A stretch of DNA of 64,000 bases from Chthoniobacter flavus (GCA_945861435.1 CAMAUX010000014.1:1-64000); one strand, 5' to 3'. Counted from the first letter of the stretch, positions 31,035 through 57,800 are shown. Program-made: numbers and translations. Notes: generated by a model from the sequence alone, not told the origin.

Positions 31035-31622
31035 TTACTTCAGTTCCTTGACGATGGTCGCGGGGTTGCCGGCGACCACCACGTTGGCGGGGACGCTGCG
31101 GCTGACGACGGAACCCGCCGCGACCACGGAGTTCTCGCCGATGGTCACTCCCTTGAGGATGACTGCGTTCATGCCGATCCACACGTTGTCGTGGATTTTG
31201 ACGGGGGCCGTTTTGATTTCCGGGCGGGGGGGACGTCCCTCGAAGAAGGGGGCCAGAGCCATCGTGTCGATGCGGCGCTGGGCGGCGTCGACTGGGTGGA
31301 AGTCGGAGTCTGCGATGCCGACATTCCACGAGATCAGGCAGTGGGAGCCGATCTCGATGCGTTCGCTGGCCATGATGAGGGCGCCGTTGAGCAGCGTGAA
31401 ATCGCCAACGCTGCAGGTGCCATGTTCTCCGAGGGAAAACGAGACGCCCGCGTAGCAGGAGACGTGTTTTCCGAGGACCACCGCGCGCTCGCGCCGGCTT
31501 TTCATAAAGCGGAAGATCTGCGCGGTCTCAAGGTACACGCCCTCTCCCCAGACGACGTTGGCGGGGATGGGGTGCTGCCACCAATCCTCTTGGACGCGGC
31601 GTTCTGGAGTGATGTTGCTCAT
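31035..31622 (-). CDS. Hexapeptide-repeat acyltransferase (LbH family)
   Basis: 195-aa left-handed beta-helix protein of the maltose/galactoside O-acetyltransferase type. Hexapeptide turns run from about residue 50 to the end, with [39 protein letters not shown] and [15 protein letters not shown]; the catalytic-type His is in SDFHPVD. Such enzymes usually acetylate sugars of surface glycans or small sugars. Its ATG overlaps the stop of the ABC exporter upstream by 4 bases, so the two are coupled and may act on the same envelope glycan or glycolipid. The acceptor is unknown. Confidence 0.8.
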
Positions 31623-33403
31623 GGTGTGGTGGTTTGCGTGAGGCCGACGTGGGCTGCGTGGTAAAGCTGCGCGTAGGCGCCTCCGCGGGCCAGAAGTTCC
31701 GGACCGGATCCTGTTTCCAAAACCCCGCCCTGTCCGAGTACCACGATGTGGCCGAGTTGGTGAACGGTGGGGATGCGATGGGTGATGATGAGGGTGGTGC
31801 GTCCGCGCATGAGTTCCTCCATCGTGGTCATGATGGCGGCCTCGGTTTTTGGGTCGAGCGCGCTTGTGGGCTCGTCCAGAAGGAGGAGGGGCGCGTCCTT
31901 GAGAAAGGCGCGTGCGATGCCGATGCGCTGGCGCTGACCAACGCTGAGGTGGTTGCCGCGCTCACCCACTTGGGACGCGTAACCCTCGGGAAGAGCCGAG
32001 ATGAATTCGTGCGCCTGAGCCTTCTTTGCAGCCTCGATGATCTCCTCCTCGGTGGCGCCGGGCCGTCCATAGGCGATGTTTTCACGGATGGTGGTGGAGA
32101 AGAGCAGCGTGTCTTGGAGGACGATGCTGATCTGGTTGCGAAGCGACCTCTTGCTCACGGAGCGGAGGTCGTGTCCATCGAGCAGCACGCGGCCGCCGGT
32201 GGGGTCGTAGAAGCGAGGCACGAGGCTGAGCAGCGTGCTTTTGCCTGCGCCGGTGCCGCCGACGAAGGCCACGGTTTCGCCGGGGGCGATTTGAAGGCTG
32301 ACGCCGCGCAGGATGGGGCGGTCCGCGGAGTAGCCGAAGCTCACGTCTTCGAAGCTGACTGCGCCCCTTGCCGTATCGATCGCCGGGGCGTTTGGGGCGT
32401 CGGGCACTTCGTCCGGGCGGTCGAGGATTTCGAAGCAGCGCTTGGCGCCGGCGGTGGCGCCTTCGAGTGCCCAGCCGAGATTGGTGAGGGCTTCGACGGG
32501 CTGGTAGAGCATGACGAGGTATTGGGAGATGGCGAAGAGGGCGGCGAGGGTGAGGGTGGCGTCCATCACGTGGCGCGCGCCGAAGTAGAGCATGGCTGCG
32601 GTGCTTGCGGCCATGATGGTGCTCACCGCGAGAGAGCTTTTCATTGAGGTGTACATCTGGCGGAGGTAGGCCTCCTGGCTCTCCCTTGCGCGTCCGGTGA
32701 ACTGGGAAACTTCGTGGTCCTCGCGGCCGAAGGCCTGGATCATCTTCACTGAGCTGAGGCCCTCCTGCGCGTGGGTGAGCAAAGCGCTCTCGCGTTCTTG
32801 GATGGCGTTGGATTCGTTGCGGATCCGGTTTGAATAAAGCCGGATGGTGAGGATGAGGAGGGGGAGGATGAGCAGGGAGAGCAGGGCGATTTGCCAGTCC
32901 AAGCGCCAGATGACGTAGAAGGTCGAAGCGATGCTCACAAGCGAGCCGAAGATGAAGCTGCCCTTTGCGTAGAAGGTCTGCACGGCCATGGAATCGTAGG
33001 CCACGCGGAAGCTGGAGTCTGCGCTGCGGCGGGCATCGTGGAACTGCAGGGGCAGGGAATGGAGGTAGGCGTAGAGTTCGGTGCGCAGGCGCAGCAGTGC
33101 GTGGATGCCCACCTTGATGTAGAGCATGCTGCTGAGCAGTTGGAGCCAGCCGGCCACCAGGTGCACGCCTACGAGCAGGCCGCAGAGGAGGATGGGAGCC
33201 ACTTCCACGGCCACCTCGTGCCCCCAGAGTTGCACGCTGGTTTTGCCGGCGAGGAAGCCCGGCAGCACCTCGCCGACTACGGCGGAGAGCGGCCACGGCT
33301 TGAGCAGGCCGACTGCGATGGACGCCATGCCGAGCAGGGTGGCCCCCACCGTCGGGACTAGGTACGGCCGGTAGTAAACCAGGGTGCGGCGGTAGATCGA
33401 CAT
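31619..33403 (-). CDS. ABC exporter, fused membrane and ATPase domains
   Basis: 594-aa half-transporter: a six-helix exporter domain (about residues 1-320) and an ATPase with Walker [10 protein letters not shown], signature [15 protein letters not shown], Walker [13 protein letters not shown] and H-loop ITHRIPT. A homodimer is expected in the inner membrane. Similar in layout to lipid flippases and multidrug exporters. Coupling (ATGA) to a hexapeptide acyltransferase hints at a modified glycolipid or surface-sugar substrate; this is inference. Divergent from the deacetylase gene at 33607, with a 203-base gap in which I see no clear regulatory site. Confidence 0.85.
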
Positions 33404-45030: not shown

Positions 45031-48000
45031 ATGAGTCCCCTTCGTTTTCTGCGTTGTTCCGCGCTTCTGGCGGCAGGTTTTTTTGGCAGCGTGGTGCCGG
45101 TTTTCGCTGCCCAGCGGATTGTGTTTCTTGCGGGGGGGCGCAGTCACGGGCCCGGGGAGCATGAGTTCAACGCGGGGTGCCGGATTCTGGCAAAGGCGCT
45201 CAACGAGCAGAGCGGGCTGGCTGTGCAGGCGACGGTGGTGAACGGGTGGCCGGCGGATGAAGGGGTGCTGGATGGGGCGAAGGCCGTGGTGATTTACGCA
45301 GACGGTAGCAGTGTGGTGGGCAAGGGGTGGGAGAAGATGGACGCGCTGGCTGGCAAGGGTGTGGGGATCATGTTCATGCATTACGCTGTGCATCCCTCGG
45401 CCGAGCAGGGGGAGAAGTATTTCCGGCCGTGGATTGGCGGGGCGTTCGAGACAGGGTGGTCGGTGAATCCGCATTGGGTGGCGGATTTGAAGGGGTTGCC
45501 CAATCATGCTGTTTCGCGCGGGGTGAAGGGGTTGGTGGAGGCGTATGATGAGTTTTACTATCACATGCGGTTTCCGGCGGAGCGTGGGCGGGTGCTGGAT
45601 TTGGTGACTGCGACGCCGACGCGGGAGCGCATCAAGCGGTACATTAATCTTTGGAACGAGCATGGGGTGTCGGAGCTGGAAAAACCGCAGGCGCTGATGT
45701 GGGGGATTGAGCGGCAGGGTGGGGGGCGTGGTGTGGGGTTCACCGGGGGGCATTATCATCGCAACTGGGCGGTGGACGGGTTTCGCACGCTGGTGCTGAA
45801 CGCGGTGGTGTGGGCGGCGGGGATGGAGGTGCCGGCGGACGGGGTGCGTTCGCTTCCCGTGGGTGAGGAGCAGCTCAATGAGAATTTGGATGACAAGGGG
45901 CCGAGCAAGGCGCGGCTGACGGTGCCGCAGCCCGGGGAGTTTAAGGCGATCCCGACGGCGCCCGTGCCGGTGGAGCGGGAGAAGGGGTTTGGGGCGAAGG
46001 TGGAGGGTGGTGAGGCGAAGACGATCGCGGTCAGTGGGAAGGCGGCTGTGAGTGTGCAGTCGAGCGCGAAGCCTGAGGAAAAGGGTGTGGCGAAGCCTGT
46101 GTACGGCTCACCGCAGATCAAGAGCGGGACGCGTCCGCGGTTTGTGGACGTGAAGGTGGCTTTGGACAAACCGCGGGAGCTTTACCTTGTGGTGTCCGAT
46201 GAGGGGTCGATCAGCTGTGATTGGGCGGACTGGATCGAGCCCCGGTTGGTGATGGCCGATGGGCGGAAGCTTCCGCTGACGGATGTGAAGTGGAAGTCAG
46301 CGACGGCTGGAAGCGGGCGGGCGATGGTGGGCAAGAATAGTATGGGCGGGCCGCTGTTGGTGGAGGGGAAGGGCTACGGTGGAATCGGGACGCACGCGCC
46401 GTCGGTGATTGCGTATGAGTTGCCAGAAGGGGTGGTGGGATTTGAGGCGCAGGCAGGGATTGACGATGGGGGGATGGAGCGCGGCGGAAAGCCGAGCGAT
46501 GCGTGCGTGAAGTTCCAGGTGTTCACGCAGAAGCCGCCCACGGCTGCTGCGGCTGCACCGGTGGTGGTGAAGGACGATGGGGAGACGCTGGTGCCGGCGA
46601 ATCTGTTCACGGTGCCGGAAGGTTTGGAGGTGAGTGTGTGGGCGACATCGCCGATGCTTTACAATCCGACGAACATCGCTTTCGACGAGCGCGGGCGGCT
46701 CTGGGTGGCTGAGGGTGTGAATTACCGGGGCAAGCGCGGGCGGCGTCCTGAAGGGGACCGGATCGTGGTGCTTGAGGACAGCACAGGGGCGGGGAAGGCG
46801 GACCGCAGCACGGTGTTTGTGCAGGAGGCGGGGCTGGCGTCGCCGTTGGGGGTGGCGGTTTTTGAGGACAAGGTGGTGGTGTCGCAACCGCCGGACTTGC
46901 TGGTTTACAGCGACACGAACGGGAACGGTGTTTTTGAGGCTGGGGCGGAGAAGCGCGAGGTGTTGCTGACGGGGTTTGGCGGGAATCAGCACGATCACAG
47001 TTTGCACAGTGTGACGGCGGGTCCTGACGGGCAGTGGTATTGGAACCAAGGGAACACGGGTGCGCATTTCACCGACAGGTCCGGGCGTGAATTCTTCATG
47101 GGCAGTCCGTACATGATGCAGGAGATTGCAGGGAGGAAGAGCGGGGACGGGCATGTGTGGATCGGCGGGTTTCTTGCGCGGATGAACCCGGACGGCACGG
47201 GGGTGACGGTATTGGGGCATAATTTCCGCAACAGTTATGAGCAGGCGGTGACGTCCTTTGGGGATGTGTTTCAGAGCGACAATGATGATCCGCCAGCGTG
47301 CCGTGTGACGCCGGTGATGGAGGGCGGCAACGCTGGGTTCGCGTCCGTGGACGGCAAGCGCGCGTGGGGTGCGGACAGGCGGCCCGGGCAGGAGACACCG
47401 GTGGCGGAGTGGCGTCAGGAGGATCCGGGGACGATGCCCGCGGGCGATGTGTACGGGGGCGGGTCGCCGACGGGCGTGGCGTTTTACGAGAACGGTGCGC
47501 TTGGGGAGAAGTGGAACGGTTTGCTGCTGGCGTGTGAGGCTGGGAAGAACGTGGTGTTCGGTTATCTGCCGAAGCCCGAGGGGGCGGGGTGGAGGATGGA
47601 GCGGTTCGATTTTCTCACATCGAACAAGGAGAAGGAGTTTGCGGGTTCGGATTTCCTGGGGGGTAAGGCGAGTGGGGAGTTGAAGACGAAGTTTCGTCCG
47701 AGCGATGTGGCGGTGGGGCCGGATGGAGCGCTGTACGTGGCGGACTGGTTTGATGCACGGGTGGGCGGGCATGGGACGATGGATGATCGGTATACGGGGA
47801 CGATCTATCGGATTGCGCCGAAGGGTTTTCGTTCCCAGGTGCCGAAGCTGGATCTGGGGACGCAGGAGGGTCAGATCGCGGCGTTGAGGAGTCCCGCGGT
47901 GAATGTGCGCTATAGCGGTTTTGTGCGGCTCAAGGCGCAGGGGGCGGCTGCGGTGCCTGCGGTGAGTGGGTTGCTGGCGGATGGGAATCCGTACATTGCG

Positions 48001-49146
48001 GCGCGCGCGGCGTGGCTGCTCGCGCAGATGGGGGATGCGGGTGCGGCGAAGGTGCGTCCGTGGCTGGAGGCGGGAGAGGAGTGGAAGCGGGTGGTGGCGT
48101 ATCGGGCGCTGCGGCGTGCCGGGGCGGATGTGCTGGGGATGGCGGGCCGGATGGCGGAGGACAAATCGGCGGCGGTCCGGCGCGAGGTGGCGTTGACTTT
48201 GCGGGAGGTGGAGGCGGGGAAGGCGGTGCCGATCCTTAAGGGGCTTGCGGGAAAGTTCGATGGGAAGGACCGTGCTTATCTGGAGGCGCTGGGGCTTGGG
48301 AGTGAGGGGAAGGAGGCTGCGGTTTATGAGGCATTGCGAGGCGGCTTCGGTGCGCCTGGGCAGTGGGGGGATGCGGCGGCATGGGTTGCATGGAGGTTGC
48401 ATCCTGCGGGTGCGGTGGCGGCATTCCGGGAGCGAGCGCTTTCCGGGGAATTGAGCAGGGAGGCGCGCAAGCTGATGGTGGACGGGTTGGCGTTTGTGGG
48501 GCACCCGAGCGCGGTGGGTGCGATGATCGAGCTGGCGCGTGCGAAGGGTTTCCCGCTGAAGGATCAGGCCGACTGGTGGTTGATGAACCGGAAGGGGAAC
48601 CTTTGGAAGGAGTACGGGGTGGAGCAGAGCATGCAGGCTTTGGGAATGTATGATCCCGCGAAGGTGAAGCTGATGGCGGTGGAGATGCCGCCCGTGCCCA
48701 AGGATGCGCCGCAGCTTCCGGGTGCGCCGGAGATTGCGAAGCTGGCTGGGGATGCGGTGCGCGGGAAGGCGGCGGTGGCGGTGTGCCATGCGTGCCACAA
48801 GATCGGCGGGCAGGGTGTGGAGTACGGGCCGGATCTCACAACGTTCGCACGGCAGCAAACGGCGGAGGTGGTGATTCAGGCGATCCTGAAGCCGTCGCAG
48901 GACATCTCCCATGGATACGAGGGTAGTTTGGTGAAGACGACGGATGGCCTGAACATCACGGGGATGGTGTTGAGCGACGGGGATCCGCTGCTGGTGAAGT
49001 GCATGGGGAATATGGTTCAGACGGTGCCGCGCAGCCGGGTGGCGAGTGTGGCGCCGCTGGGACGTTCGCTGATGTATGAGCCCTCGCAGTTGGGGCTCAA
49101 TGCGCAGGCCATTGCTGACATTGTCGCCTATCTGCGGACGCCGTGA
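45031..49146 (+). CDS. Giant ThuA / NPCBM / PVC-type dehydrogenase / HEAT / cytochrome c protein
   Basis: 1371-aa exported protein. Signal peptide (1-26); ThuA-like glutaminase-fold domain (about 28-275: IVFLAGGRSHGPGEHEF, MFMHYAVHPS, GGHYHRNW); NPCBM-like carbohydrate-binding module (about 365-510: GGIGTHAPSVIAY); PVC membrane-bound-dehydrogenase beta-propeller (about 525-950: PTNIAFDERGRLWVAEG, NQHDHSLHSVTAGPDG, RPSDVAVGPDGALYVADW); HEAT-like helical repeats (about 960-1190); and a C-terminal cytochrome c with CHACH (1252-1256). Proteins of this build are frequent in Planctomycetes and Verrucomicrobia and are thought to oxidise sugars or bind polysaccharide in the periplasm. The substrate is unknown. 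The start gives a clean signal peptide. Confidence 0.88.
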   Translation: MSPLRFLRCSALLAAGFFGSVVPVFAAQRIVFLAGGRSHGPGEHEFNAGCRILAKALNEQSGLAVQATVVNGWPADEGVLDGAKAVVIYADGSSVVGKGWEKMDALAGKGVGIMFMHYAVHPSAEQGEKYFRPWIGGAFETGWSVNPHWVADLKGLPNHAVSRGVKGLVEAYDEFYYHMRFPAERGRVLDLVTATPTRERIKRYINLWNEHGVSELEKPQALMWGIERQGGGRGVGFTGGHYHRNWAVDGFRTLVLNAVVWAAGMEVPADGVRSLPVGEEQLNENLDDKGPSKARLTVPQPGEFKAIPTAPVPVEREKGFGAKVEGGEAKTIAVSGKAAVSVQSSAKPEEKGVAKPVYGSPQIKSGTRPRFVDVKVALDKPRELYLVVSDEGSISCDWADWIEPRLVMADGRKLPLTDVKWKSATAGSGRAMVGKNSMGGPLLVEGKGYGGIGTHAPSVIAYELPEGVVGFEAQAGIDDGGMERGGKPSDACVKFQVFTQKPPTAAAAAPVVVKDDGETLVPANLFTVPEGLEVSVWATSPMLYNPTNIAFDERGRLWVAEGVNYRGKRGRRPEGDRIVVLEDSTGAGKADRSTVFVQEAGLASPLGVAVFEDKVVVSQPPDLLVYSDTNGNGVFEAGAEKREVLLTGFGGNQHDHSLHSVTAGPDGQWYWNQGNTGAHFTDRSGREFFMGSPYMMQEIAGRKSGDGHVWIGGFLARMNPDGTGVTVLGHNFRNSYEQAVTSFGDVFQSDNDDPPACRVTPVMEGGNAGFASVDGKRAWGADRRPGQETPVAEWRQEDPGTMPAGDVYGGGSPTGVAFYENGALGEKWNGLLLACEAGKNVVFGYLPKPEGAGWRMERFDFLTSNKEKEFAGSDFLGGKASGELKTKFRPSDVAVGPDGALYVADWFDARVGGHGTMDDRYTGTIYRIAPKGFRSQVPKLDLGTQEGQIAALRSPAVNVRYSGFVRLKAQGAAAVPAVSGLLADGNPYIAARAAWLLAQMGDAGAAKVRPWLEAGEEWKRVVAYRALRRAGADVLGMAGRMAEDKSAAVRREVALTLREVEAGKAVPILKGLAGKFDGKDRAYLEALGLGSEGKEAAVYEALRGGFGAPGQWGDAAAWVAWRLHPAGAVAAFRERALSGELSREARKLMVDGLAFVGHPSAVGAMIELARAKGFPLKDQADWWLMNRKGNLWKEYGVEQSMQALGMYDPAKVKLMAVEMPPVPKDAPQLPGAPEIAKLAGDAVRGKAAVAVCHACHKIGGQGVEYGPDLTTFARQQTAEVVIQAILKPSQDISHGYEGSLVKTTDGLNITGMVLSDGDPLLVKCMGNMVQTVPRSRVASVAPLGRSLMYEPSQLGLNAQAIADIVAYLRTP

Positions 49147-49264: not shown

Positions 49265-51034
49265 CTATTTTTCCTCGGGAAGCTGGATGCCAAGCTTTTC
49301 GAGGATGGTGCCTGAGGCGAGCCAGAGTTGGGAGATGGAGCGGTTGAGTTCGGCTTCTGCGGCGAGTTCCCGGCTTTTGGCGTCGTAGAGGCGGCGGAGT
49401 TGTTCGACGAGTTCGAAGTTGGAGACCTGGCCTTCCTCGAGGCGTCTGGTGCCGATGCGGACGGCTTCTTCGAAGAGGCGGCGTGTGTTGCGGGCGGTTT
49501 CCTGGCTCTGGCGGTTGGTTTCGATGCGGCTGAGGACGGTGTCGATATCGACGCCGATGGCGAGTTCGGTTTGTTTGATGCGGAGGAGGGCCTGTTCTTT
49601 CTGTGCGAGTGCGAGATCGCGCTGGGCGCGTGCTTGGATATTGCCGAGGGGGACGCGGAAGGTGAGGCCTACGGACCATGAGGGGGTATGGCCTGTGAGT
49701 GATTGGTTGAAGCCCTCGGAGTAGGTGGTGGATAGGCCGTTGAGTCCGTAGCTGGCGACGAGGTCGAGCTGTGGGAGGAGTTGGTTTTTGGCGAAGCGCA
49801 GGCGGACGTCCTGGGCCTCGGCATCGGCGAGAGCGGACTGGAAGTCGGGGCGGTTGGCGAAGGCGAGTTGGAGCCACAAGGATCGATCGAGTGGCGGCAA
49901 TGGGAGGGGGCGTGATTTTGCGGGGAGGAAGACCCGGGGATCGGAGGCTTGGAATGCTGGGAGGATGAGGCGTTTGAGGGCGAACTGGCGTTCGAGGAGG
50001 ACGTTTTTGGTTGCGAGGAGTTGTTCTTTGTCGAGGGAGACTTGGGCGAGTGCCTGCTGGACGTCGAAGGGTTGGCTGAAGCCGACTTCGAGTCTGCGCT
50101 GGTTGTACTGGACGAGTTTTTCGTCGGCGGCGATGGCGTCCTGGCGGACTTGGACGTTGGCGACGCCGTAGACCATGTCGAAGTAGGAGGTGATGACGGC
50201 TTGGAGGCTGCTCATCACCTGTTTTTTCCAGTTGAGGATGGAAACACGCTTCGCGATGCGGGCGGTGCGCAGGTTCGCGAGATTGGCGGAGGGGCCGAAG
50301 TCCTTGAGGAGGGGTTGGACGAGTTGGATTTGGGCGACGGTCTGGTACTCGGCGGTGACGGGAGCGGTGTTGGTGGAGAAGGTGCTGTAGAGGCGGTTGG
50401 CTTCAGCGAAAAGGCCGACACGCATGCCCCACGGGGTGCGTTGGATGAGGCTGGTGGAGAAGCGCTCGTTTTGCTGGTCGAAGTTGACGGAGCGGATGCC
50501 GATGGCGGTGTCCTCTATGCTGAGGCGGGGCAGGCCTTGGATTGCGAGCAGTTCGTTTGTGTTTTCTCTGATGGCGCGGATGCGGTCGCGTTCGAGGGCC
50601 TGCTGGCTGGTGGAGAGGTCGTTGATGTTTTCCGGGCGGCGGTTGGATTCGCGGGTGGCTTGCGCGCTGAACACGGGGTCGAAGGCGCCGACTTCGAATT
50701 GAACGCGTGCGCGTTCGGCGGCGACGGTGGTTTTTTCGATCTTGGCGTCGAGGTTGTTGGTGAGGGCGAGGCCGATGGCTTCTTCGAGTGAGAGGCGTTG
50801 GAGGGTGGAGGCATCGAACCACTCGCGAACTTTTTCAGGCAGTGGTCCCGGAGGTGTGGGGGCTGGGGTGAGGGTGGTTTTTTCCGCAGGAATTTTTTTG
50901 GGGGCTGGCTTGCGGGTGGTCGCGGTTTTTTTTAGAGGGGATGTCTCGTGGGGCTGGGTGTCAGCCGCCGATGCCGTGCAGAGGAGCGATGCCGAGAAGG
51001 CCACCAGAAGGAGGATGGGGCGTGGCAGGGGCAT
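49265..51034 (-). CDS. TolC-family outer membrane efflux protein
   Basis: 589-aa protein with a signal peptide (PILLLVAFSASLLCTASA). After a Thr/Lys/Pro-rich linker (about 30-65) come two TolC-like repeats: LSLEEAIGLALTNNLDAKIEK (about 80-100), then long helices rich in Ala, Arg and Gln (about 245-305 and 455-545), with RVPLGNIQARAQRD and EGQVSNFELVEQLRRLYDAKSREL near the end. TolC trimers form a beta-barrel and a periplasmic tunnel for export. Last gene of the five-gene minus-strand operon, 96 bases after the M50/HlyD gene; it supplies the outer-membrane exit. Confidence 0.9.
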   Translation of the reverse strand: MPLPRPILLLVAFSASLLCTASAADTQPHETSPLKKTATTRKPAPKKIPAEKTTLTPAPTPPGPLPEKVREWFDASTLQRLSLEEAIGLALTNNLDAKIEKTTVAAERARVQFEVGAFDPVFSAQATRESNRRPENINDLSTSQQALERDRIRAIRENTNELLAIQGLPRLSIEDTAIGIRSVNFDQQNERFSTSLIQRTPWGMRVGLFAEANRLYSTFSTNTAPVTAEYQTVAQIQLVQPLLKDFGPSANLANLRTARIAKRVSILNWKKQVMSSLQAVITSYFDMVYGVANVQVRQDAIAADEKLVQYNQRRLEVGFSQPFDVQQALAQVSLDKEQLLATKNVLLERQFALKRLILPAFQASDPRVFLPAKSRPLPLPPLDRSLWLQLAFANRPDFQSALADAEAQDVRLRFAKNQLLPQLDLVASYGLNGLSTTYSEGFNQSLTGHTPSWSVGLTFRVPLGNIQARAQRDLALAQKEQALLRIKQTELAIGVDIDTVLSRIETNRQSQETARNTRRLFEEAVRIGTRRLEEGQVSNFELVEQLRRLYDAKSRELAAEAELNRSISQLWLASGTILEKLGIQLPEEK

Positions 51035-51130
51035 GCGGGCGGTGAAAGGGGTGGTGCCGGTGGGGCGGTGCCGGGGTGGGGCAGGGGGGCGAGTGTTCAG
51101 CGGGGAATGGGGGCTGTCAACGCAGTGTGG

Positions 51131-53338
51131 TCAGAAGCGGAAGTCGAGGCTGATGGAGTCGCGGAGGTCTTGGAGGAGGAGGGATCCCCAGAGGTGTGTG
51201 CCGGCGTAGATTTTGCCGCGGCTGGTCATGCCCGGGCGCAGGAGGCCTTCGTGGTTGTCGACGACGACGACAGCTTCGTAGGTGCGTTCGGTGGGGATGT
51301 CGCGGCCTTTGGAGTCGACGTAGACGGGCACGTCGCCGGAGCGGCGTGCGGAGAATGCAGCGGGGATGGATTCTCCGAAGAAGGCGATGGGTTTGCCGGC
51401 GATGGTGCCTTTGAAGGAGCGGCCCGGGTAGGCGTTGGCGCGGAGGACGACGCGCTGGCCGGCCTCGATGTGGCGGACTTCCTGTTCGTTGAGGGCGACC
51501 TTGATGCGCATGGGGTTGAGCGGGGCGATTTCGCAGAAGAGTTCGTTGCTGCGGAGGAGGTGGCCGAGCTTTTTGTCGAGGTCGCGAGTGAGGACGGTGC
51601 CTGCGTTGTTTGCGCGGAGCACGAGGTGGCTGGCGTCCTGGGTGGCTTCGTCGAAGCGGGCCTGGTAGGCGAGCCGGGATGTTTCGGCCTGCTTTTGTTC
51701 GGCAGGGCGCTCGAGGCCGATGGCGCGTGCGACGGTGGCCTCTGCGACGCGGAGACGGTTTTCGACGAGGACGAGGTTTTGGGAGAGTTCGCGATTTTCG
51801 AGGCGTGCGAGAGGCTGGCCTGCTTTGACTTGCTGGCCTTCGTGGACGAGGATTTCGGCGAGGAAACCTGACACCTCCGGGCGGATTTGTTCTGTTTCAG
51901 CGAGTTGGACTGCGCCCGTGCGTTTGATGGTGTGCTGGACGGGGAGGAGGCAGGCGAGGAGGAAGAGGAGGAGGGAGGCGGTGCCGAGGAGGGAGAGTCG
52001 GCGCAGGCGGCCGGTGGGGTGCCAGTCTTCCCGGGAGAGCTGCATGGATTTGAAGAAGCCGACGATGGGGAGGAGGATCCAGGAGGTCAAGGCGAGGACG
52101 CTGAACCAATTGGAGAGAGCCTCAAGGCCGAGTGGCTTGAGGTGGGGTTCCATGAAGACGACGAGTTGATAGATGACCCAGTAGCCGTAGAGCCAAGAGA
52201 GGATGGCGTAGGTGTAGAAGAAAGCGAAGCGGCGTTTTGGGAGAGGGAGGCGGGAGAGGGAGGCATCGTTGGAGTTGTGGCCGAAGAGGAGTTTGGTGAA
52301 CTGGGCTTGGATGAGAGCGCGTGCCTTGCCCTGGAGGTTGGGGACTTCGATGAGGTCGGTGAGGATGTAGTACCCGTCGAAGCGCATGAGCGGGTTGGCA
52401 TTGAAGAGGATGGTGGAGACGGAGGTGATGATGATGAGGTTGAAGAGGAAATTCTGGAGCCAGCCTGGCTGGATGGCGGCCCAGAGGAAGGTGGCGAAGG
52501 CGGCGAAGATGAGTTCGACGTAGATGCCTGCGGCGGAGACGAGGATGCGGTGTTTGCGGTCTGGCATGGTCCACGTGTCGCTGACGTTGACGAAGAAGTA
52601 GGGGGTGAAGACCATGGACATGAAACCGACCTCGTGGACTTCACCGCCGAAGTGTTTGCAGGTGAGCCCATGGCCGAGTTCGTGGACGGATTTGACCACG
52701 ATGGTGGTGCCCCACATGAGGAGGAGGTTCTCCCATTGGAAGAGGTTTGCGAGGGCCTGATCGAGGTGGCTGGCGTTGCGCACGAACACCACGGTGGCGG
52801 CGAGGATGAGGGCGACTGAGATCCAGAGCGCCTGTTTGGTCCAAACCCAAGCGACGGGGCGCGCCATGCGGGCGAAGAGTTTGTCCGGGTCAAAGAGGGA
52901 GAAGCGAAAGAAGAAGATGTTGTTTGCGAGGTTGTAGAGGAAGCCCTTGGAGCGCTTTTGTTTTTTGGAGGCTTCCATGCGAGCCTTGATCCGTGCGCCT
53001 TGGACGCTGAGGAACTGGAGCAGGGCGAGGTCGTTGGCAAAGCGCAGCACGCGGTCGTCGAGTTCCTCCGGTGCGTACTCGAGGCGGATGTGGGGGAAGT
53101 GCGCGGCGTAGGCTTCGCGGATCTGGCTGAAGGTGCGTTTGCCGTCGAAGAGGGAGGCGAGGAAGTGGTCCTCGGCGGTCATCCGGAAGTACTGGAGGGA
53201 GATGGGGTCCTTGACGATGTAGTAGGTGCGGTCCTCGTAGATCTGGCGGCTGACGCAGAGGTCCGTGCGGAGTGCGGGGAGGACGACGTTCTCCTGCTGG
53301 GAGGGGGCGGGGGAGGGGCGTGCGGCGTCGGCGCTCAT
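51131..53338 (-). CDS. PqqD-like / M50 metalloprotease / HlyD adaptor fusion
   Basis: 735-aa inner-membrane protein in three parts. Residues about 28-112 look like a PqqD-type winged-helix (RRE) domain: YIVKDPISLQYFRM, FLASLFDGKRTFSQI, VLRFANDLALLQFL. The middle (about 165-460) is a polytopic M50 site-2-protease domain with zinc motif HELGHG (His219, Glu220, His223) and the third-ligand motif NPLMRFDGYY (315-324). The C-terminus (about 490-735) is a HlyD-like adaptor: VSGFLAEILVHEGQQVKAGQPLARLENREL lipoyl-type half, coiled coil, and barrel domain. It is the only polytopic transport-like protein in the operon. A RiPP-type peptide client is suggested by the PqqD-like part, but no precursor peptide is seen. 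Confidence 0.85.
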   Translation of the reverse strand: MSADAARPSPAPSQQENVVLPALRTDLCVSRQIYEDRTYYIVKDPISLQYFRMTAEDHFLASLFDGKRTFSQIREAYAAHFPHIRLEYAPEELDDRVLRFANDLALLQFLSVQGARIKARMEASKKQKRSKGFLYNLANNIFFFRFSLFDPDKLFARMARPVAWVWTKQALWISVALILAATVVFVRNASHLDQALANLFQWENLLLMWGTTIVVKSVHELGHGLTCKHFGGEVHEVGFMSMVFTPYFFVNVSDTWTMPDRKHRILVSAAGIYVELIFAAFATFLWAAIQPGWLQNFLFNLIIITSVSTILFNANPLMRFDGYYILTDLIEVPNLQGKARALIQAQFTKLLFGHNSNDASLSRLPLPKRRFAFFYTYAILSWLYGYWVIYQLVVFMEPHLKPLGLEALSNWFSVLALTSWILLPIVGFFKSMQLSREDWHPTGRLRRLSLLGTASLLLFLLACLLPVQHTIKRTGAVQLAETEQIRPEVSGFLAEILVHEGQQVKAGQPLARLENRELSQNLVLVENRLRVAEATVARAIGLERPAEQKQAETSRLAYQARFDEATQDASHLVLRANNAGTVLTRDLDKKLGHLLRSNELFCEIAPLNPMRIKVALNEQEVRHIEAGQRVVLRANAYPGRSFKGTIAGKPIAFFGESIPAAFSARRSGDVPVYVDSKGRDIPTERTYEAVVVVDNHEGLLRPGMTSRGKIYAGTHLWGSLLLQDLRDSISLDFRF

Positions 53339-53368
53339 GCAGGGGTGGGGCGCGGGCTCGGCCGGGGG

Positions 53369-54112
53369 TTAACGGCCCGGTGGAGCGGGCTGGATGGTGC
53401 TGAAATCGGCGGCGCCACGGGTGCCAGCCTTGATGCGGTGGCCGGGATTTTCCATCTGGAGCTTGAGGCGGAAGAGGCCGCTCGCGGCGTCGATGCGGGG
53501 GTCGATGAAGGTGATTGAGGCGGTGGAGGGTGTGGGGCCGAGGGCTGGGAAGCGGACCTGGACTTTCTGGCCTTCCTTGAGAGAGCCCATGAGTTTTGGG
53601 TCGAGGTAGAACTGGATGTAGATTTGGTCGATGTTGACGATGTCGAAGAGTTTTTCGACGCGTTCGACGCCCTCGCCGGTTTCCTTGTATTTTTTGACGA
53701 CGATGCCTGAAAGGGGGGAGCGGATGGTTTTTTCGCGGAGGGCGACTTGGGCGAGTTGGTGGACGAGGCGTTGGACTTCGAGTTGGGCTTGTTCTTCGAG
53801 GGCTTTCTCGCGGCTGCCCATTTTGTCGTCGAAGAGGGACTGGGCGCCTCTGGCTTTGAACTCGCTGAGTTCGACGACCTTCTGTGTGCGTCGGACTTCG
53901 AGCTCCTCCTTTTCGGAGCGGAGTTTGAGGAGTTCCTGTCCTTCGGTGACGGTGTCGCCTTCTTCGACGAGTACGGCGGTGATGGTGTCCTGAAAGACAG
54001 GGGAGCTGATGCTGACCTGTTTGACGGGAAGCACGATGCCTTGGACGTCCTCAGCGCTGGCCGCTGAGCAGATCGTCAGGAGGGCGAGTGCGGGGAGGAG
54101 GATGCGCTTCAT
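53369..54112 (-). CDS. HlyD/RND-type periplasmic adaptor
   Basis: 247-aa membrane-fusion protein with a signal peptide (ILLPALALLTICSAASAE). Lipoyl half-motifs ITAVLVEEGDTVTEGQELLKL and TIRSPLSGIVVKKYKETGEGV flank a short coiled coil (about 70-125), followed by a beta-barrel domain with VNIDQIYIQFYLDPKLMGSL and GSLKEGQKVQVRF. The ATG at 54112 opens the signal peptide; an ATG at 54175 would add 21 polar residues before it. Third gene of the export operon, 30 bases before the M50 fusion. It likely bridges an inner-membrane partner to TolC. Confidence 0.87.
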   Translation of the reverse strand: MKRILLPALALLTICSAASAEDVQGIVLPVKQVSISSPVFQDTITAVLVEEGDTVTEGQELLKLRSEKEELEVRRTQKVVELSEFKARGAQSLFDDKMGSREKALEEQAQLEVQRLVHQLAQVALREKTIRSPLSGIVVKKYKETGEGVERVEKLFDIVNIDQIYIQFYLDPKLMGSLKEGQKVQVRFPALGPTPSTASITFIDPRIDAASGLFRLKLQMENPGHRIKAGTRGAADFSTIQPAPPGR

Positions 54113-54191
54113 AAGGGGTGGTTCTTGTGTGTGAGTTTGCGCCTTGGTCCTTTCGGGGCTGCCCTGGCGATGCATGGGCGACGCTTTGGGC

Positions 54192-56297
54192 CTAGCCGAT
54201 CATGCGCAGGCGCATCCAGTCCCAGATGCGTTCGAGGTAGAGCCAGAGGAGAGGTTTGCGACCGAGGTCGATTCTTGCGCGGCCGGTGAGTCCGGGGCGC
54301 ATGGCGTTTTGGAGTTCCTGAGGGATGGGGACGTCGTTGGCCGTGATGAGAAACACGTTTTCACTTTCGCGAGGGAATGCGGAGGAACTGATCTGGCGGT
54401 GGTCTTGCAGGAAGGCACGGAGATTGTGAGCGCTCTGGCTGTAGAGGATGAAATGGATGTCCTTTGGGGGCGCGCCGGTTTTGGGGAGGGCTTTTTCGAC
54501 GCGGCCGATGGCCTTCTCGTTGACGTCGACGATCAGGTCCCAGTGGTCGAGGGCGGCGACTTCTGCGAAGGGGGATCCGGGTTGGATGAATTCGCCGGCG
54601 CGCAGTTCGAGGTCCTTGGTGAGGATGGCGCCTGTGATGGGGGAGCGGAGGGTGGCGGCGTCGATGTCTGTGCGCAGTTTTTTTTCGTTCTGTTCGGTGA
54701 CGCGTGATTGGAGGAGGGAGACCTGTGCGCTGGCTTCGTCGCCGAGGCTGCGGTAGCGCTCGGCATCTGCGAGGAGGCGCTGGCGTTCCTGTTCATTGGC
54801 CGCGAGTTCGGTTTCGATGCGGCGGGTTTCGAGTTGGGCGACTGGGGTTCCCTTTTCGACATGCTGACCTTCGCGGACGAGGACTTTTTCGATGCGTCCG
54901 GCGATCTCAGGCACGATGGCTGCACGTTTGCTGGGGAGCAGGGAGCAGTTGCCATCGATGCGTTCGAGCTTGGGGTAGAGGCAGGTGATGAGGATGGCGG
55001 CGGCGAGTGTGTAGGCCTTGAGTCGGGAGCGGCGGCCGCCGTCGCCGAGGAGCAGGCGCTGTGCATTGCGGATGCTGCGGCTGATGGGGAGCAGGGGCAG
55101 GGAATGGTGTTCGTAGGCGCTGAGGAGGCTGCGTGTGCTGTGCGCGGCGATCCATTCGGCGAGTCGTGTGGTGGAGGGCTGTTCCTTGCCCGGTGCCGGA
55201 GGGGCGAAGAGGCTCTCGGTGGTGCTTTCGCAGAAGAGGACGCCGACGATTTGTTTTTGCTCGTTGAGCAGTGGGGCAAGGGCGGCGCTGAGCACGTGGG
55301 AGACTTCGAAGTAGGCGAGGTCCACGGCGTCGGTGCGGATTGCTGGGGGGCGGTCTGGGTGGTCGGTGGGAGATGGGTCGGTGGTCGGTGGCAGCGGTGC
55401 GTTGGTTTGTGCTGCCTGAGCGTTCTGGGCGAGGAGTTCGTTTTTGCTGATGAGGACGAGTTCGGTGCCTGTGTGGGCCTCGGCGAAATCGAGCATGGCC
55501 TTCACTGTGGAGCTTTTCTGCTCGACGGTTTCCTGGCCTGAGATGGCGAGCATGCGCCATGAGCCGTGGTGGAGGAAAGCGACCGAGCAGCGTTCGCAGC
55601 CGAGGAGGTCGCGGCTGTAGTTGGCGGTGAGGCGTGCGACTTCCAAGGGTTCGAGGGAGCCCGCGATATCGGTGGAGAAGCGGAGCAGGTGCTGGAGGCG
55701 CTGGGTTTCAAGGACGAGGGAGCCGAGTCTGCGCGATTGCAGGTGTTGCTCGACGTAGACTGCGAGCGAAGTGAGGAAGGTGAGGAATTCGGGGTAGTTC
55801 TGGGTTTGGGTCTGCGGGGGCAGCCATACTTGGAGGACGCCGATGACCTGTTCGTTGAGGAGAAGGGGGGCGTGAAGGAAGGGGAAAGGGGTGCGGTTGG
55901 GGGACTGTGTGGCTGGGGTGCCGCGCAGTTGTTGGAGTTGTTCTTCGAGCGAGCCGGGTTCCGGAGCGCTGGAGGGGGGGAGGACCGCGTTGCGTCGCTG
56001 TTCGACGACCTCGCTGAGGACGCGCAGGATGGTTGCCCGCTGGTGTTCGTCGCGCTGGAAGAGGCTGGAGTCGAAGGCGACTTCCGCTGCGAGTTGGAAC
56101 TCGTTTTTTGCCTCTCCCGCGTTGCGGCCAACCAGCCAAACGGCGCCTCCGCGTGCATCGACAGCCTTCACTGCACGGGTGAGGAACTGGGCGAAGTATT
56201 CCTCGCTGCGGATGTCCTTCTTGCTCAGGGCAGCAATTTCATCGATGAGGCGCTGGATGCGGGAGCGCGCCGCTTCGATGGTTTGATCCTGAGCCAT
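54192..56297 (-). CDS. GAF-domain / HlyD adaptor fusion protein
   Basis: 701 aa. The N-terminal half is cytoplasmic with two GAF-like domains (about residues 25-195, with APLLLNEQVIGVLQVWLP, and about 205-410, with LAPLLNEQKQIVGVLFCES). A transmembrane helix follows (about 427-443, AAAILITCLYPKL). The C-terminal part is a periplasmic HlyD-type adaptor: IAGRIEKVLVREGQHVEKGTPVAQLETRRI, a coiled coil (about 495-550), ATLRSPITGAILTKD, and a barrel domain. A cytosolic ligand sensor joined to an export adaptor is unusual and suggests gating by an intracellular signal. Second gene of the operon, 69 bases after the CHASE2 gene. Confidence 0.85.
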   Translation of the reverse strand: MAQDQTIEAARSRIQRLIDEIAALSKKDIRSEEYFAQFLTRAVKAVDARGGAVWLVGRNAGEAKNEFQLAAEVAFDSSLFQRDEHQRATILRVLSEVVEQRRNAVLPPSSAPEPGSLEEQLQQLRGTPATQSPNRTPFPFLHAPLLLNEQVIGVLQVWLPPQTQTQNYPEFLTFLTSLAVYVEQHLQSRRLGSLVLETQRLQHLLRFSTDIAGSLEPLEVARLTANYSRDLLGCERCSVAFLHHGSWRMLAISGQETVEQKSSTVKAMLDFAEAHTGTELVLISKNELLAQNAQAAQTNAPLPPTTDPSPTDHPDRPPAIRTDAVDLAYFEVSHVLSAALAPLLNEQKQIVGVLFCESTTESLFAPPAPGKEQPSTTRLAEWIAAHSTRSLLSAYEHHSLPLLPISRSIRNAQRLLLGDGGRRSRLKAYTLAAAILITCLYPKLERIDGNCSLLPSKRAAIVPEIAGRIEKVLVREGQHVEKGTPVAQLETRRIETELAANEQERQRLLADAERYRSLGDEASAQVSLLQSRVTEQNEKKLRTDIDAATLRSPITGAILTKDLELRAGEFIQPGSPFAEVAALDHWDLIVDVNEKAIGRVEKALPKTGAPPKDIHFILYSQSAHNLRAFLQDHRQISSSAFPRESENVFLITANDVPIPQELQNAMRPGLTGRARIDLGRKPLLWLYLERIWDWMRLRMIG

Positions 56298-56366
56298 GAG
56301 GGAGAGAGGAGGAGCGGAGTGGGTTGGTGGGCCGTGGGCCGAGCCCGGCTCCTCGCGAGGGAGGGC

Positions 56367-57800
56367 TTAGAGCTTGGGGGCTTCGTTTGGGGAGGGCTCC
56401 GCAAGCTTAGGCTGCGGCGTGGGCTCCAGCGCTTTGTTAAGAGAGGAAAGCAGGGTGAACGGTTGGGAGCGCGTGGCGGGAGGCTGGGGTTGCTCGGGGG
56501 CGCTTTTGGTTTCAGGCGCCTGCGTTTGGGTGTCGGCTGCTTGTGGGGAGGCTGGAGTGGTCGTTTGCAGGGATGGCGCAGGTGCCGCTTGAAGCAGCGG
56601 ACGGAAGCAGACGAGGAACGCCATGAGGCCGAGAGGAAGCGCTGCGGGCATGGCGATGCGAGTCGAGGCGAAGAGGAGTGTGGCGATTCCGCAGTAGGCG
56701 GCGAGGGCGCTGAGGGAGATGGTGACGCAGGAGCGGGGTGGTGCGTGAGATGCCGCGGCGGCGAGGAGGACGGCGGCTGCGACGATCGCCCAGTCGCTCC
56801 AAGCGGGGCGCTCTGGGGGGAATGAGCGGGTCAGGATGGTGGTGACGCCTGCGGCCATCAGCTCGCCGGCGGAGAACTTTCCTGAAGCCGGTGTTTGGAG
56901 GGTGCGTGAGGAGGAGTCCGTGCGGGTGAGCAGGAGCATTCTTCCCTCCAGATTTTCCGTGGCAATGGATGAGGGGGACTTGGAGTCGATTTGGCTGCTG
57001 GCGAGCAGGAGGTCGTCGAAGCTTTGGCGCGTAAGGGATGCGGAGGGATCCAAAGGCATTTCGCCGAGCGCGTTGATGGGAATAGCGAAGCGGTCTGCCA
57101 CCCGGATGCGGGAGCCGAGTTCAACGGTGAGTTCGTCGAGGCTGATGCGCTCGTGGATGGCGACGAGTTGGAGGGGGAGTGTGGGGACGACCTGGCCGCG
57201 ATAGCGCAGAAGGAGGGGGATGCGGCGGTGGGCGGCTTTGTGTTCGGGAACGTTGGTGACGCCGATTTCGCTCGAAAGTCGGAAGTCATCTTCTGGTTGG
57301 GAACCGATGGCGGTGAATTCCGGGATCAGCCTTGTGTCGCCGTGGACGTTGCGCACCAGGGGCATTTCTTGGAGTGGCGGGACGACTTGTGGGTCTTCCG
57401 GGATGCCGAGTTGGGTGCCAAGGAGGACTTTAGGGCTCTTGAGGAGGTGGTCGCGGAGGATTTTTTTGTATTGGGGGAGTTTGGGTTGCGGGGCGGAGTG
57501 GTCCTGATGCCATGAGAACACCTCGTCGGTGGCGATCACGGTGGGGTGGAATGCACTTGCTGCCTGAAAAAACAGGGCGAAGTCCAGTGGGCTCCACGGC
57601 CATGGGTGCTGGCGCAGGGAATCGTCGTTGATTTCCACCAACGTGAGCGGCGGGGGGGGGAGTTGGGTTGGGTGGAGTCGTGCGAGGAGAGTTGCGAAGC
57701 GGGCGTCGAATTCCTGAAGCGGGTCCTGCTGAGCCTCGCGAACGAGGACTGCTCCCAGAACGAGCATGAGGAAGGCGAATTGCAGGCGGGCCCGTGGCAT
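56367..57800 (-). CDS. CHASE2-domain membrane protein without output domain
   Basis: 477 aa. One N-terminal transmembrane helix (about 5-22), a large periplasmic CHASE2-type sensor region (about 30-320, with LTLVEINDDSLRQHPWPWSP and IATDEVFSW), then three closely spaced C-terminal helices (about 333-405) and a Pro/Gln/Thr-rich cytoplasmic tail of about 70 residues. CHASE2 normally feeds kinases, cyclases or diguanylate cyclases; none is attached here. As first gene of the export operon it may sense periplasmic conditions for the GAF-HlyD partner, by contact or tail binding. The SRP RNA gene lies upstream on the same strand. Confidence 0.8.
   Translation of the reverse strand: MPRARLQFAFLMLVLGAVLVREAQQDPLQEFDARFATLLARLHPTQLPPPPLTLVEINDDSLRQHPWPWSPLDFALFFQAASAFHPTVIATDEVFSWHQDHSAPQPKLPQYKKILRDHLLKSPKVLLGTQLGIPEDPQVVPPLQEMPLVRNVHGDTRLIPEFTAIGSQPEDDFRLSSEIGVTNVPEHKAAHRRIPLLLRYRGQVVPTLPLQLVAIHERISLDELTVELGSRIRVADRFAIPINALGEMPLDPSASLTRQSFDDLLLASSQIDSKSPSSIATENLEGRMLLLTRTDSSSRTLQTPASGKFSAGELMAAGVTTILTRSFPPERPAWSDWAIVAAAVLLAAAASHAPPRSCVTISLSALAAYCGIATLLFASTRIAMPAALPLGLMAFLVCFRPLLQAAPAPSLQTTTPASPQAADTQTQAPETKSAPEQPQPPATRSQPFTLLSSLNKALEPTPQPKLAEPSPNEAPKL

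Follow-up and report, generated by a model that had tools for sequence, protein, structure and literature searches.

A row of five minus-strand genes in Chthoniobacter flavus encodes three proteins with adaptor domains and a TolC-family channel without any recognizable pump, which raises the question of what such a conduit could export and how its cargo would be recognized. The operon lies within the window, i.e., the whole analyzed stretch of 64 kb, which forms the start of contig C14 in genome G000 (a draft of 5.35 Mb in 105 contigs, 96% complete). Our favored reading, to which we assign a probability of roughly 0.6, is that its four core genes encode an N-terminal-signal-dependent, type-I-like, SecA2-less M50-HlyD exporter for large tagged proteins. 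All five genes listed in the first-pass annotation are open reading frames at the positions given below, and Pfam profile matches recovered the domains it had named:

56367..57800, minus strand: CHASE2 membrane protein, 477 aa, at the head of the row (PF05226, E 4e-20)
54192..56297, minus strand: GAF-GAF-TM-HlyD protein (GAF-HlyD), 701 aa; two GAF domains (Pfam GAF, GAF_2; 3e-9, 3e-5) and HlyD (HlyD_D23, 3e-11)
53369..54112, minus strand: periplasmic HlyD-type adaptor (free HlyD), 247 aa (HlyD_D23, 3e-18; TIGR01730 RND_mfp above cut-off, 122 bits)
51131..53338, minus strand: RRE-like/M50/HlyD fusion (M50-HlyD), 735 aa (HlyD_D23, 3e-17; Peptidase_M50, 1e-6)
53012..53287, minus strand: RRE-like domain (PqqD fold) of M50-HlyD, approximately residues 18-109, from predicted fold and structural matches
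52670..52684, minus strand: HExxH zinc motif of M50-HlyD, H219-H223 (HELGH), with H, E, and H invariant in the alignment
49265..51034, minus strand: TolC-family outer membrane channel, 589 aa, last core gene in orthologous loci (PF02321 OEP, 2e-40)

The intergenic gaps, counted from the TolC end toward CHASE2, measure 96, 30, 79, and 69 bp and agree with the 30-96 bases reported earlier; likewise, the operon is indeed devoid of ABC, RND, and MFS genes. The start of the free HlyD was placed at the signal peptide MKRILL, while a longer ORF extending to 54175 (268 aa) would shorten the gap of 79 bp to 16 bp. Its hairpin motif L-x6-S is kept in most orthologues. GAF-HlyD is proposed to be a cytoplasmic regulator carrying a periplasmic adaptor domain. 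The locus resembles a type I secretion system (HlyB-HlyD-TolC) in that its HlyD-type adaptors and TolC-family channel share an operon. In contrast to the latter, it contains no ABC transporter but M50-HlyD and GAF-HlyD fusions, and its candidate signal is N-terminal. The nearest ABC exporter identified in the window is MsbA-like and located at 31619-33403, ~16 kb from the operon. Elsewhere in the window, a 1371-aa protein at 45031-49146 joins ThuA, NPCBM, DUF7133, HEAT, and cytochrome c domains, and the GC skew rises from ~0.1-0.2 to ~0.36 near 40 kb, staying high thereafter to the window end.

Searches of 38 relatives with M50-HlyD and GAF-HlyD, combined with reading of the respective neighborhoods, showed that the four-gene core of GAF-HlyD, HlyD, M50-HlyD, and TolC recurs in ten genomes of the family (G000, G001, G002, G003, G008, G010, G013, G017, G021, and G022). 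The named close orthologues belong to a Chthoniobacteraceae MAG, a Chthoniobacter flavus MAG, and a Spartobacteria MAG. The GAF-HlyD gene of G008 and G022 sits on a separate contig, and an extra locus in G005, also with a GAF-HlyD orthologue, is cut by the contig end. Homology searches and inspection of gene calls revealed no ABC, RND, or MFS gene conserved beside the core in any of the ten loci, with non-core calls stemming from a simple codon-usage script that may miss small neighbors. The trans-envelope conduit without an adjacent pump, as expected by the first-pass annotation, is thus supported, and the conserved neighboring pump that would have spoken against it did not appear in the relatives. 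The idea that all five genes stay together holds for the four-gene core only. CHASE2 genes are common in these genomes, yet one adjoins the operon in G000 alone and in none of the seven relatives with an assembled neighborhood; in G002, sharing flanking genes with G000, GAF-HlyD directly faces the neighboring plus-strand gene. CHASE2 was consequently ruled out as a member of the system, and since it is lineage-specific, the suggested double sensing, of the periplasm by CHASE2 and of the cytoplasm by GAF, is at most half correct.

The architecture as such is not new, because Kamneva, Poudel and Ward (2015) already described loci in Planctomycetes, Verrucomicrobia, and others, in which HlyD, Peptidase_M50, GAF, and sometimes OEP proteins adjoin a secondary SecA_DEAD (PMC4452313); the novelty initially claimed for the system was therefore put too strongly. 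The authors remarked that an ABC transporter is missing, put forward SecA2 as the ATPase and M50 as a potential pore, and regarded the wider role as completely unknown without proposing a substrate (PMC4452313). The export route is so far known from one gene-neighborhood survey only. Both types of loci encode Peptidase_M50-HlyD, GAF-HlyD, and a further HlyD together, sometimes with OEP and without an ABC transporter. In contrast to the 2015 loci with their secondary SecA, however, neither the window operon nor G000 has one: the only SecA_DEAD match in the 96% complete draft is of canonical length and located on C13, and a search for a second SecA found none.

Maximum-likelihood analysis of 49 M50-HlyD proteins, with group labels derived from the SecA counts per genome, placed the window protein in a separate SecA2-less clade (24 rows, support 99/92), apart from the SecA2 clade (24 rows, support 98/85), of which one member, G017, is without detected SecA2. 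Among the 38 relatives, an additional, shorter SecA is present in G008, G009, G013, and G022 only. It adjoins a second, divergent M50-HlyD operon in G009 and G022 and lies on another contig in G008 and G013; in G022, a draft of 79% completeness, it is the only SecA seen, and the canonical one went undetected. Six window-type genomes (G000, G001, G002, G003, G010, and G021) lack a second SecA, and no M50-HlyD belonging to the SecA2 clade was detected in them. A divergent M50-HlyD of G000 on contig C24 branches outside both clades on a long branch. Its locus (L071:15-13966) also encodes a HlyD partner, with a 2008-codon repeat-rich frame before and a trypsin/PDZ protease frame downstream.

In some operon neighborhoods, large repeat proteins with a common short N-terminal motif were found and prompted a motif search, so that these initial cases do not count as independent of its outcome. 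The DNA pattern encoding L-E-x-R-[IVLM]-A-P-A yielded 9, 1, 19, 9, 29, 21, 22, 12, 15, and 10 matches in the ten operon genomes, in the order listed above. Outside of these, G005 has 2 and G007 20 matches, and the other 26 relatives have 0-2, while the reversed pattern used as control matched 0-4 times. All nine matches in G000 are positioned near the start of long ORFs, with 539-3538 codons following the motif. In 31 of 31 inspected N-termini an E precedes the motif by two residues, though unforced by the pattern, and the fifth motif position is always I even though four residues were allowed; the tag ends in [IV]-E-[PVA]-L-E-x-R-I-A-P-A. The tagged proteins of G000 have no strongly hydrophobic segment after the tag (Kyte-Doolittle maxima of at most 1.8 over 17 residues), are acidic and Cys-poor, and consist of 42-53% G/N/D/S/T, whereas 43 other proteins average 26.5%; no RTX family was matched in the six of nine that were scanned with Pfam. 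The cargo would most likely be large, acidic, Cys-poor, repeat-rich proteins with a short non-hydrophobic N-terminal tag.

Within the 24 family genomes, tag and operon are associated (Fisher p = 1e-5 with G005 counted as operon-bearing, 7e-5 without, kinship being ignored), and shared descent could produce part of this association. In two other genera GAF-HlyD is preceded by a tagged gene of the same orientation, which lies 94 bp upstream in G010 and 121 bp upstream in G005; no tagged gene stands beside the operon in G000. One exception is G007, where searches with M50-HlyD and GAF-HlyD found no operon component despite the 20 tag matches, possibly due to an assembly gap.

A stronger argument comes from a parallel across the phylum. 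The LEPR-XLL / LEPR-8K family (NF012209) shares with the local tag a short N-terminal E-x-L-E-x-R on very large proteins, LEPR-XLL-type ORFs in the phylum reaching up to ~20,000 residues; the local tag ends in I-A-P-A, whereas LEPR-XLL ends in x-L-L-S-A. With 0 matches in G000, NF012209 was discarded as a model for the local tag itself. In a sample of 388 genomes of the phylum, NF012209 matched in 28 and M50-HlyD (E <= 1e-30) in 79, with both present in 23 (odds ratio 25, p = 3e-13); these statistics ignore kinship, and the genomes span many families. At a stricter cut-off, chosen after seeing the list, LEPR-XLL was accompanied by M50-HlyD in 21 of 21 cases. The two are located within 15 kb of each other in 12 of the 23 genomes, and 22 of the 23 contain at least two SecA_DEAD matches. 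The order in locus L181 is HlyD, GAF-HlyD, M50-HlyD, SecA2, and a giant gene starting ...EPLETRLLLSA, and in L183 TolC, HlyD, GAF-HlyD, M50-HlyD, and SecA2, followed by ...VEALEQRILLSA. Tag ending and SecA2 split do not coincide in every case, as the SecA2-less G408 has a nearby ...VESLEQRQLLA protein. The LExRIAPA dialect itself looks family-specific, since outside G000 no genome of the phylum sample has more than 3 matches. Among the 38 relatives, NF012209 scored above its cut-off only in G008, beside its SecA2. There, the second SecA (G008:C91:54667-56738, in L066) is followed within 1 kb by a LEPR-8K match starting a 22,555-codon ORF. LEPR-XLL is mentioned once in each of two papers, one dealing with a Vibrio genome and the other with viral metatranscriptomes from lakes. 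Within the open-licence literature, neither a described secretion route for LEPR-XLL giant proteins nor M50/HlyD/PqqD/TolC or CHASE2/HlyD combinations were found, which is weak evidence in both cases.

These associations bear on the explanation that the locus is an ordinary tripartite efflux or type I secretion system, with a distant gene supplying the ABC, RND, or MFS pump, small molecules or unrelated cargo as substrate, and a tag link reflecting shared ancestry or lifestyle. Outer membrane factors often serve several pumps, the adaptor model RND_mfp matches the free HlyD, and the MsbA-like exporter lies ~16 kb away. However, the lack of a conserved pump next to the core across the ten genomes, the presence of an M50 protease and an RRE-like domain, neither of which belongs to known efflux pumps, and the recurrence of the LEPR-XLL association across many families render this explanation unlikely. 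We consider it still less probable that SecYEG and housekeeping SecA carry the cargo over the inner membrane in a first step, with the operon merely maturing it (M50) and passing it on via HlyD-TolC. Such a division of labor would suit the single SecA of G000, the lack of another dedicated motor in the operon, and the SecA-family protein within the same gene order in the sister clade, but the tagged N-termini, unlike Sec signal peptides, do not continue into a strongly hydrophobic stretch.

The protease motif of M50-HlyD is intact: the residues H219, E220, H223, and D321 are invariant in 15 homologues, PF02163 matches above its cut-off, and the protein has the HExxH and downstream Asp motifs of M50 site-2 proteases. 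For residues 1-130, AlphaFold2 predicted a model (pLDDT 82) with the three-stranded beta sheet and helices of the RRE fold. Among known structures, it is most similar to PqqD and RRE domains, some of which have a leader peptide bound (Z 6.2-8.5, rmsd of 2.5 A over 81 residues; Foldseek E-values modest at 0.02-0.04). A full-length AlphaFold2 model was set aside (pLDDT 43 with 4 sequences). On the sequence level, Pfam PqqD matched in 3 of 15 homologues with a best E of 0.086, so that the initial PqqD-like label is backed by the fold and weakly by sequence. According to the predicted model, the N-terminus thus folds like a leader-peptide-binding RRE domain, a shared fold that does not in itself show binding. 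A protease-driven secretion route, as originally proposed, finds no support, since to our knowledge intramembrane proteolysis does not power translocation; a gating or recognition role of the M50 protein is plausible because of the invariant active-site residues and the RRE-like domain.

The RRE fold would also suit a RiPP-like system, with the RRE-M50 protein maturing small precursor peptides in the manner of daptide or YydH/LiaK pathways before the product leaves through HlyD-TolC. The respective metalloproteases (NF041824, NF058609) share the HExxH intramembrane protease region, and M50-HlyD is matched by daptide_HExxH (7e-52, residues 38-360, thereby covering also part of the RRE-like domain) and LiaK (2e-14), in both cases below the curated cut-offs. 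In contrast to these proteases, M50-HlyD has a C-terminal HlyD domain and a TolC partner. No RiPP modification enzyme was identified near the window operon, and the associated proteins are hundreds to thousands of residues long, making a RiPP-like function very improbable.

A third, SecA2-less M50-HlyD operon, referred to as type X, exists in the genus of the window (L047:5028-11836, L048:270-7081, and L049; G002, G001, and G003). It encodes HlyD, an ECF sigma-factor protein (~610-660 aa, observed in G002 and G001), a protein with a HlyD domain, and M50-HlyD; a LESRIAPA gene is oriented divergently to it in G001. Least probable of all is a signaling function, with M50 releasing a regulator by regulated intramembrane proteolysis and the adaptor domains acting as envelope sensors without forming a conduit, for although M50 site-2 proteases commonly release regulators and the ECF sigma factor of this related sub-clade stands between its HlyD and HlyD-fusion genes, no sigma/anti-sigma pair was seen beside the window-type operon, and a full adaptor set with a dedicated TolC exceeds the needs of sensing.

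For the favored M50-HlyD exporter, we infer the following route. The cytoplasmic RRE-like domain of M50-HlyD would bind the tag, and the M50 core in the inner membrane would hold and probably cleave it. A periplasmic funnel onto TolC may be built from the free HlyD together with the HlyD domains of M50-HlyD and GAF-HlyD, and the GAF pair could gate or regulate this assembly. Energy would have to come from outside the operon, with housekeeping SecA/SecYEG or another ATPase as candidates. More tentatively, and with somewhat less than even odds, this may represent a protein secretion route without an ABC, RND, or SecA2 motor of its own, where an RRE-type domain on an intramembrane protease reads the tag of very large proteins and feeds these into a HlyD-TolC conduit, LExRIAPA and LEPR-XLL being dialects of one signal.

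Beyond the known architecture, the SecA2-less clade, the association of the tag with M50-HlyD, and the RRE-like fold of the M50-HlyD N-terminus are new. The tag link provides the M50-HlyD locus of 2015 with a candidate substrate class, whereby locus and substrates become testable, and the SecA2-less clade raises the question of how large proteins might be exported without a dedicated motor.
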